Assembly (NCBI GenBank): GCA_903857495.1
Contig: CAIOFF010000048.1
Coordinates: 62,001 to 126,000 of the forward strand
Reading direction: 5' to 3'
Length of the DNA: 64,000 nucleotides
Source of the DNA: an uncultured Holophagaceae bacterium
Lineage (GTDB): Bacteria; Acidobacteriota; Holophagae; Holophagales; Holophagaceae
The first letter of the stretch is position 1; each line of letters starts with the position of its first letter. Positions 7,269 through 9,275 of this stretch are shown here, in pieces. The notes under the pieces are model-generated. The model did not search any database, was not told where the DNA came from, and was given only the letters and a program-made list of their open reading frames with translations. Both the position numbers and the translations under genes were made by a program.

Positions 7269-8951
7269 GTGAAGAGCAGCTACAACGATTTCCGGGTCAC
7301 CATGAGCGCCGGCGCGCCGGGACGGGTGTCCACGGCCCGGGGCCGGGGGGCGGTCGCCTCCGCCTCGTGCCAGGCCTCGGAGCTGGCCATCGCGGTGCTG
7401 CGGGATGGTGGCAACGCCTTCGATGCCGCCTTCGCCATGGCCTTCTCGCTGGCCATCTGCCATCCCCAGGCGGGCAACCTCGGGGGCGGCGGCTACCTGC
7501 TGTACCAGGAGCAGGGCGGGCGGCCCCGGTATTTCAACTACCGGGAGCAGGCGCCGATGGGCGCCACCCGAGAAGCTTTTCTCACCGCAGAAGGCGCGCC
7601 CGATCCGGACAAGACAGCCTTCGGCCCCGCTTCGGTCTGCGTGCCGGGCACCGTCAAGGCCTTCTTCGAGCTCCAGGGCCGACATGGCCGGCTCAAGGCC
7701 GGGGACCTGCTGCAGGCCGTGGCCCGTCAGGCCGACGAGGGGGCTCTCGTCACCCAGTTCGAGGCGGACTGCCTGAACCGGCTGTCCTCCAAGCTCGCGG
7801 TTTCTCCCGAGGCCCGGCGCATCTACGTCCGCGCCGAGCCCTACCGGGCCGGCGACACCCTGCGGAACCCCGCCCTGGCCGAGACCCTGCGCCTGCTGGC
7901 CCGGGAAGGCGAGCCGGCCTTCTACCAGGGCCGCATCGCCGAGCAGATGGTCACGGACCTCCAGGCTCACGGCGGCTTCCTGAGCGCGGCCGATCTGGCG
8001 GGCTACGCCATCCGGGAAGGCGAGCCCATCCACGCCGAGGTGGGCGGCAAGGTGGTCTGGACCGTGCCCCCCGAAGGCGGCGGCGCCATGCTGCTGGAGA
8101 TCCTGGGCATCCTCGACCAGGATGTCTTCCGGCGCCTGGCCTACGACAGCCCCGCCTACCACCACCACATCGCCCAGGCCTGCAAGCTGGCCTTCATCGA
8201 CCGCATGGACTACCTCGGCGACGTGCCTCCGGGCGAGGCCTACCGGCGCCTCCTGACCCGGGAGCAGCTGGACCAGCGCTTCGGGCGCATCGACCCGGAG
8301 CGGGACACGCCCACGGCGGCTCTGGCCGCGGGTGTCCGCGCCCCCAAGGACGCGGGGAAGAACACCACGCACTTCGCCATCCTCGACGCCGAGGGCAACG
8401 CGGTGTCGAACTCCTACACCATGAACCTGCGCTACGGGTCCAAGTGGGCCGTGGCTGGCGCGGGCTTCCTGCTCAACGGCAGCATCGACTCGTTCTCCTT
8501 CATCGAGGGCACCGAGAACTACTTCGGCGTCATCGGCAGCGCCCCGAACCTCTTCGCGCCGGGCAAGCGCCCCGCCAGCAACATGGCGCCGGTGCTGGTG
8601 ACCTCCGGCGGGGCCGTGGACCTGCTGCTGGGCACCCCCGGCGGGCCCACCATCCCCACCACGCTGGCGAACACCCTGCTGGCCACCCTGGTCCACGGCG
8701 TGGCGCCCGAGGCCCAGGTTGCCGCCAGCCGCCTGCACCACCAGGGCTGGCCCGATGTGCTGTACCATGAGCCCGGCTTCGACCGGCCCGAGCTGCTCAC
8801 CGCCCTGGCGGCCCTGGGCTACACCCTCAAGGACAAGCACGAGCTCATCTCCGATGTGCACGGCGTCTTCCGCCACGACGGCGAGTGCCTGGCCGTCAGC
8901 GACCACCGCCGCGAAGGCCAGGCGCTGGCTTGGCCGCCTGCGGGGGAGTGA
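7269..8951 (+). CDS. ggt: Gamma-glutamyltransferase
   Basis: A 560-residue Ntn-hydrolase proenzyme. It cleaves and transfers gamma-glutamyl groups from glutathione and related amides. The self-processing site is NTTHFAILDAEGNAVS, with the nucleophilic Thr at 366; the small subunit would start there. Other landmarks are GGNAFDAAFAMAFSLAICHP, NLGGGGYLL, and the late segment RPASNMAPVLV followed by LLLGTPGGPTIP. Start is GTG at 7269. No cleavable signal peptide is visible, although many family members are periplasmic. The stop codon lies within the first of two 32-bp tRNA-like repeats. Confidence 0.9.
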   Translation: MKSSYNDFRVTMSAGAPGRVSTARGRGAVASASCQASELAIAVLRDGGNAFDAAFAMAFSLAICHPQAGNLGGGGYLLYQEQGGRPRYFNYREQAPMGATREAFLTAEGAPDPDKTAFGPASVCVPGTVKAFFELQGRHGRLKAGDLLQAVARQADEGALVTQFEADCLNRLSSKLAVSPEARRIYVRAEPYRAGDTLRNPALAETLRLLAREGEPAFYQGRIAEQMVTDLQAHGGFLSAADLAGYAIREGEPIHAEVGGKVVWTVPPEGGGAMLLEILGILDQDVFRRLAYDSPAYHHHIAQACKLAFIDRMDYLGDVPPGEAYRRLLTREQLDQRFGRIDPERDTPTAALAAGVRAPKDAGKNTTHFAILDAEGNAVSNSYTMNLRYGSKWAVAGAGFLLNGSIDSFSFIEGTENYFGVIGSAPNLFAPGKRPASNMAPVLVTSGGAVDLLLGTPGGPTIPTTLANTLLATLVHGVAPEAQVAASRLHHQGWPDVLYHEPGFDRPELLTALAALGYTLKDKHELISDVHGVFRHDGECLAVSDHRREGQALAWPPAGE

Positions 8952-8979
8952 CTTCGCATCCCCCTCTCTCCACCAACGA
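8948..8979 (+). repeat. tRNA-Ser 3'-end-like repeat, copy 1
   Basis: A 32-bp sequence that resembles the T-arm and acceptor 3' end of the neighbouring tRNA-Ser(GCU), in the opposite orientation to that gene. It differs from the copy at 9124-9155 at two positions and overlaps the ggt stop codon. It may be an attachment-site remnant or a fragment of a duplicated tRNA. Confidence 0.65.
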
Positions 8980-9050
8980 GTGTGGTGGTTCGGTGCGGGG
9001 GATTCCCTCCGGGGCCACCGCTGTGCGGCGTCCCCTCCGCCCGCACGCAT

Positions 9051-9118
9051 CACTGGCACGGGCCTGATCGCTTCTGGCAGTCCACTGGACTGCCTCCAGC
9101 GGGCCCTACCTGCCAGTG
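9051..9118 (+). other. Nested inverted repeats between the two tRNA-like repeats
   Basis: CACTGGCA (9051-9058) pairs with TGCCAGTG (9111-9118). Inside it GGCAGTCC (9076-9083) pairs with GGACTGCC (9087-9094) across a 3-nt loop. The layout could form a branched RNA or a DNA cruciform. No gene or known RNA family is recognised. Confidence 0.4.
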
Positions 9119-9123
9119 CTGCT

Positions 9124-9155
9124 GTGACTTCGAATCCCCCTCTCTCCGCCAACGA
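9124..9155 (+). repeat. tRNA-Ser 3'-end-like repeat, copy 2
   Basis: Direct repeat of 8948-8979 at a 176-bp spacing. Its central 25 nt (9129-9153) are an exact inverted copy of 9181-9205, the T-arm, acceptor 3' strand and CCA of tRNA-Ser(GCU). The two inverted copies flank the tRNA's terminator hairpin. Confidence 0.7.
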
Positions 9156-9179
9156 AAGAAGCCGCCAAAAGGCGGCTTC
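9151..9179 (-). terminator. Intrinsic terminator of tRNA-Ser(GCU)
   Basis: On the minus strand GAAGCCGCC and GGCGGCTTC (9179-9171 and 9166-9158) form a 9-bp stem with a TTTT loop, followed by TTTCGTT. It begins four bases after the tRNA CCA end. Confidence 0.7.
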
Positions 9180-9182
9180 AGT

Positions 9183-9275
9183 TGGCGGAGAGAGGGGGAT
9201 TCGAACCCCCGGTACTGGTTTACCCAATACACTCGCTTAGCAGGCGAGCCCGATCGGCCACTCCGGCATCTCTCC
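9183..9275 (-). tRNA. tRNA-Ser (anticodon GCU)
   Basis: A complete type II tRNA, 93 nt including encoded CCA (9185-9183). Acceptor strands are GGAGAGA (9275-9269) and TCTCTCC (9193-9187). The anticodon loop CTGCTAA gives GCU at 9241-9239. The T-arm contains GGTTCGAATCC, and the long variable arm is typical of tRNA-Ser. It reads AGC/AGU serine codons. It is divergent from the UGA serine tRNA 83 bp away. Confidence 0.95.

Follow-up and report, generated by a model that had tools for sequence, protein, structure and literature searches.

The tRNA-Ser locus

The window (the whole 64,000-nt stretch of DNA that was analysed) carries a gene for tRNA-Ser(GCU) on the minus strand (9183–9275), identified by ARAGORN and by Rfam RF00005, the 3′ end of which (9183–9205) is the template for the copies described below. 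Directly 3′ of the tRNA lies an intrinsic-terminator-like hairpin (9156–9180, minus strand; hairpin 9158–9179, stem 9158–9166/9171–9179) that forms the axis of a palindrome. On the far side of this axis, 9129–9153 is the exact reverse complement of 9181–9205, the T-loop-to-CCA end of tRNA-Ser(GCU), and hence looks like a tRNA end when read along the plus strand; with 9129–9163 and 9171–9205 taken as arms, the palindrome is 89% perfect. This inverted copy sits within the second of two 32-mers, GTGACTTCGCATCCCCCTCTCTCCACCAACGA (8948–8979) and GTGACTTCGAATCCCCCTCTCTCCGCCAACGA (9124–9155), which are 94% identical and whose starts are 176 nt apart. The earlier note had described the 32-bp repeat pair, the 25-nt inverted tRNA-Ser(GCU) end and the terminator between them, and all its coordinates are correct. 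When scored against its own tRNA, the inverted end reaches 23/23, whereas none of 2000 shuffles scored above 14, which rules out chance as its source.

The inverted copy leads into a structured repeat-unit core with two main hairpins (8999–9136, minus strand), which is recognised by the covariance model R1 (see below) with a score of 137.6 bits. The core is closed by a partial direct copy of the tRNA-Ser(GCU) end, GGGAATCCCCC (8997–9007, minus strand), that pairs with the inverted copy to form helix 1. A second array unit in the window has decayed, leaving as remnants GGGAATCCCCC and the first 32-mer, which is the inverted copy (plus strand) of that next unit. The first 32-mer also contains the stop codon (8949–8951, in the context G-TGA-CTTCG) of ggt, the gamma-glutamyltranspeptidase gene (7269–8951). 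In relatives that lack the array ggt ends differently, and the end of the gene therefore seems to have been supplied by the repeat.

On the other side of tRNA-Ser(GCU) lies a divergent partner, tRNA-Ser(UGA) (9359–9446, plus strand, ARAGORN), whose 3′ end (9418–9447) repeats the GCU end in inverted orientation, making it a third and more distant copy, and is also a breakpoint of an inversion seen in relatives. The window's tRNA-Ser(UGA) has no terminator; the same tRNA in one relative (L185) has one. A weak cupin-like ORF begins at 9447, the base immediately following this tRNA.

A dispersed repeat family in the Holophagaceae

Rather than an isolated scar, the 32-mers together with the inverted end of tRNA-Ser(GCU) form part of a ~176-nt unit belonging to a dispersed, partly tandem repeat family of the Holophagaceae (Acidobacteriota). 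Searching 60 genomes with 8940–9290 as the query gave matches at the orthologous tRNA and at many other sites in the genus, often in tandem with a spacing of ~195 nt. The covariance model R1, built from an alignment of 18 cores, identified about 150 copies, with 40 of the 47 genus genomes positive; the relatives carry the label Holophagaceae and one of them is a Geothrix. Applied to 149 genomes drawn from across the phylum, R1 gave matches in 10 genomes of the same genus and one of a sister genus, and in none outside the family. Phage and plasmid collections matched through tRNA genes only, the repeat family itself not being found there, and a phage or plasmid origin was rejected on this basis. 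Only tRNA and tmRNA reached the gathering score in Rfam; matches to sX4, isrK and Plastid-psbl-rps4 fell below it and mostly overlapped the tRNA, leading us to discard the idea of a known RNA family. Among the papers searched, no published description of such repeats was found.

The placement of the copies is highly constrained. Among 130 copies in 100 fetched regions, 98 follow a tRNA and share its strand, and not a single one lies behind a tRNA in the reverse orientation; the first unit mostly starts 37–57 nt behind the tRNA, with tandem units following at ~195 nt. Cores are found behind 12 tRNA types and behind tmRNA, the tRNA hosts including Ser (GCU, GGA, CGA and UGA), Gln, Gly-CCC, Glu, Phe, Leu-CAA, Cys and Val. 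Within the remaining copies, a tmRNA 3′ end precedes those in L105, L106, L110, L120, L122 and L130 (the tmRNA was confirmed in L106), the others being located behind displaced tRNA 3′ halves (L099, L156, L149, L073 and L083) or at contig edges.

Displaced tRNA 3′ parts, running from the anticodon loop or the T-arm onward, precede units in L099, L156, L149, L073 (at 11599), L066 and L074, as would be expected had the integration of islands at tRNA genes shifted the array away. Two further regions (G018:C14:157281-163603 and G161:C7:677811-684859) each hold over 20 closely packed tRNA genes, many with low scores, and look like the tRNA arrays of phages or other mobile elements.

Locally matched ends and a structured core

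The unit is made up of tRNA nt 57–76 in direct orientation, a terminator hairpin, an inverted copy of those 20 nt, a structured core of ~110 nt and the direct 20 nt once more. The core itself comprises GAAGTCRC, hairpin 1, hairpin 2 and GGAG, followed by the direct end, terminator and inverted end, the whole repeating in arrays such that n cores are accompanied by n+1 direct–terminator–inverted blocks. What follows the core is the last 19–20 nt of the local tRNA (seen for Phe, Cys, Leu, Glu, Gln, Val and Ser); the family thus shares with the RtT/tyrT repeats of Escherichia coli a tandem array that begins immediately behind a tRNA and in which every unit finishes with the final ~19 nt of that tRNA. 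At ~70 nt, the palindromic direct–terminator–inverted block is comparable in size to an attC site.

The inverted ends are likewise local. In 73 of 81 copies, covering 12 tRNA types, the best match to the inverted end is its own tRNA, and in the genome analysed here 11 of 44 tRNA genes are followed by their own end inverted, as against 2.1% when the ends of other tRNAs are used. Not one of 66 tRNAs sampled from seven outgroup genomes has an inverted own end. At positions of G-U pairing it is the 3′ strand of the tRNA to which the inverted copy conforms (Gln has GAAGG, not GAGGG; tmRNA has GGAGGTG), and because of this complementarity to the 3′ strand we rejected an origin as a copy of tRNA 5′ strands (a minihelix mimic). 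A second class of array, at Arg-UCU, Asp, Pro, Met and Asn, differs in its core and carries the entire T-arm in inverted form. At tRNA-Arg(UCU) (L222, on G000:C14, L285 and L280) the inverted T-arm/acceptor lies within a few nucleotides of the tRNA end with no terminator, and the array is tandem in L222 and L285.

Across 92 distinct copies, 96.2% of the pair cells in the core are standard pairs and 352 pair cells are doubly changed, compared with 97 in shuffles; sliding the partners by 1 to 3 columns reduces pairing to at most 45%. The alignment was fitted to the model and so leans towards structure, but the effect is still far above the controls. Non-Watson–Crick pairs in the hairpin arms, counted on the tRNA-sense strand in arms picked by their Watson–Crick pairs only, comprise 37 G-U and 10 A-C, but the corresponding figures for the inverted ends are only 5.7% and 3.5%. 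The G-U excess in the hairpin arms is better explained by a single sense strand, whether RNA or ssDNA, than by a cruciform in duplex DNA, though the evidence is modest as the copies are related to one another. The window unit has a predicted fold with a z-score of −9.6 when taken together with the tRNA and −3.9 alone. The earlier note had offered a structured RNA role as an alternative, and the strong covariation of the core helices supports it, suggesting selection on a folded read-through RNA or on a folded sense single strand.

Turnover and inversion in relatives

The flanking ggt gene is common to four genomes, at about 94–96% identity, and what lies beside it varies. The window's unit is retained in one relative (L199), whilst in another (L184) its place is taken by a core of a different type, which is truncated, together with a different terminator. 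The L185 counterpart (4742–5045) of 9146–9449, a segment holding the two tRNA-Ser genes plus the terminator, is inverted at 96.4% identity, with the sequences on either side of it (equivalent to 8400–8962 and 9429–9511) being collinear, and in L186 (4741–5007) the segment 9183–9449 is inverted at 94.4% adjoining the collinear ggt flank. The breakpoints in L185 fall within the tRNA-end copies, from among which we infer the exact recombining pair. The earlier note had envisaged an inverted element: the inversion is real, being present in both L185 and L186 within the ggt flank, but it is the tRNA-Ser pair itself that has been inverted. Nor is the repeat–terminator–tRNA layout fixed at every related tRNA-Ser locus, the arrays there being full, truncated, of a different type or empty. 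Arrays therefore expand, shrink and are replaced, and the tRNA-Ser pair inverts between relatives.

Comparison with known repeats

The closest known system is the E. coli tyrT/tyrV locus (NC_000913), where 178-nt units each end in AATCCTTCCCCCACCACCA, the last 19 nt of the tRNA. Like the Holophagaceae arrays, the tyrT/tyrV 178-bp repeats, which give rise to the RtT RNA (rttR), are tandem units of ~175–200 bp directly behind a tRNA. In addition to the known direct copy, we find in the E. coli unit (NC_000913.3, about 1287066–1287236; L182) a partial inverted tRNA-Tyr end, GGGGAAGGATGAGAA, ahead of the hairpin core; its score of 11/23 was equalled or exceeded in 1 of 2000 shuffles (0.05%). The order of inverted end, hairpin core and direct end is thus common to both systems, with GGGGAAGGATGAGAA opening the E. 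coli core in a position where it could pair with the direct end. The E. coli unit differs in having no full inverted end and no terminator between tRNA and unit, and in our analysis RtT appeared at a single tRNA locus, whereas the Holophagaceae family extends to 12 tRNA types and tmRNA with locally matched ends. No sequence homology is apparent: R1 finds no match in the E. coli loci and the Rfam RtT model finds none in our sequences up to an E value of 1.

REP/BIME palindromes are small intergenic hairpins of 20–40 nt tagged by GTAG/CGTC (PMC3733652). The Holophagaceae repeats resemble them in having paired hairpins behind genes and, in many copies, a GTAG foot before hairpin 1 and a CGTC-like sequence in hairpin 2, but their units are ~195 nt long rather than 20–40 nt, they are restricted to tRNA and tmRNA ends, 42 of the 47 genomes have no RAYT and their ends are copied from the host tRNA. 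A further parallel is quasipalindrome correction in E. coli, in which template switching turns imperfect inverted repeats into perfect ones, one arm being copied from the other (PMC7202029). The matched tRNA-end arms suggest copying of just this type, although quasipalindrome correction is a mutational process rather than an element and would not on its own carry a core from one locus to another.

How might the repeats arise and spread?

We put at roughly 0.5 the probability that these are RtT-like, lineage-specific tRNA-trailer repeats with a structured RNA or hairpin core, made and kept matched by template switching and recombination at tRNA 3′ ends. According to this scheme, the polymerase would switch template at the terminator hairpin and copy the tRNA end onto the other arm, such that quasipalindrome correction could both create the inverted end and maintain its match. 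Tandem arrays would arise by unequal recombination between direct tRNA-end copies, and the core could spread between tRNA loci by exchange through the T-loop sequence TTCGAA, which is universal, with the outer 20 nt staying local. Template switching alone accounts neither for homologous cores at more than ten tRNA loci nor for the constant copy boundary at nt 57. A broader formulation, to which we would give slightly under even odds, is that the family represents a new class of bacterial repeat, in which a structured core spreads among tRNA and tmRNA genes and has its terminal repeats rewritten in both orientations from the last 20 nt of the host tRNA, driving array growth and tRNA inversion, with E. 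coli RtT as a second, independent example.

The main rival to host replication and recombination is a non-autonomous mobile element moved by a recombinase that recognises T-arm/acceptor ends and duplicates the target (nt 57–76) on insertion; target duplication is a property of CRISPR and casposon integrases. Direct copies of 19–20 nt flank each core, and the n+1 blocks for n cores, the fixed orientation and position, the dispersal across 40 of 47 genus genomes and the contig breaks at many copies are all consistent with such an element. We nevertheless consider it unlikely. An inverted end matched to the local tRNA is not what simple target duplication yields, the terminator is part of the tandem duplicates, which makes the duplicated block ~70 bp instead of 20, the matches in phages and plasmids are through tRNA genes only and no candidate enzyme has emerged. 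The window encodes no tyrosine integrase, and the five in the genome are all on contigs without the copies described here. Y1/RAYT transposases (Y1_Tnp) are absent from this genome and from 42 of the 47 genus genomes (present in 5), and reverse transcriptases are absent from this genome and from 32 of the 47 (present in 15). On these grounds we rejected both REP-type movement by RAYT and a tRNA-primed reverse transcriptase, which had been considered as the inverted end resembles a primer binding site. The simplest driver would thus be host replication together with recombination.

Somewhat more doubtful still is a purely functional reading, in which the unit is an RtT-like 3′-trailer RNA: the read-through transcript would fold, with the inverted end competing with, or being sequestered from, the tRNA 3′ end; this would modulate maturation of the tRNA or yield a processed small RNA, and the matching would be kept by selection. 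The strong covariation, the sense-strand G-U excess, the stable fold and the confinement of copies to the sense strand point in this direction, as does the fact that E. coli RtT, of like layout, is a processed RNA. The terminator precedes the core, however, and should stop most transcripts before reaching it, and the unit is far from universal, many tRNA genes and several genomes having none and copies at orthologous tRNAs often being truncated or absent.

The scar of an excised, integrase-dependent island with tRNA-Ser as attB, as proposed in the earlier note, is very improbable: tRNA 3′ ends are classical att sites, direct tRNA 3′-end repeats flank the insert as in tRNA-targeting integrative elements and some copies elsewhere lie behind displaced tRNA 3′ halves (L099, L156, L149 and L073), as island integration predicts, but integration and excision do not produce the inverted copies also present or the terminator axis, no integrase is found in the window and one core behind 12 tRNA types and tmRNA means that no single tRNA-specific integrase explains the family.

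Concluding remarks

To our knowledge, the tyrT/RtT repeats have long stood as a single odd case with no clear origin. The Holophagaceae family is much larger in scale than this, the sole precedent found, and with about 150 copies in 40 genomes, at no fewer than 12 tRNA types plus tmRNA, the origin, spread and function of such repeats become testable by comparison. Either template switching or selection for pairing has left a natural record in their tRNA-matched inverted ends, and the inversion of the two tRNA-Ser genes shows that copies of this kind rearrange essential genes.
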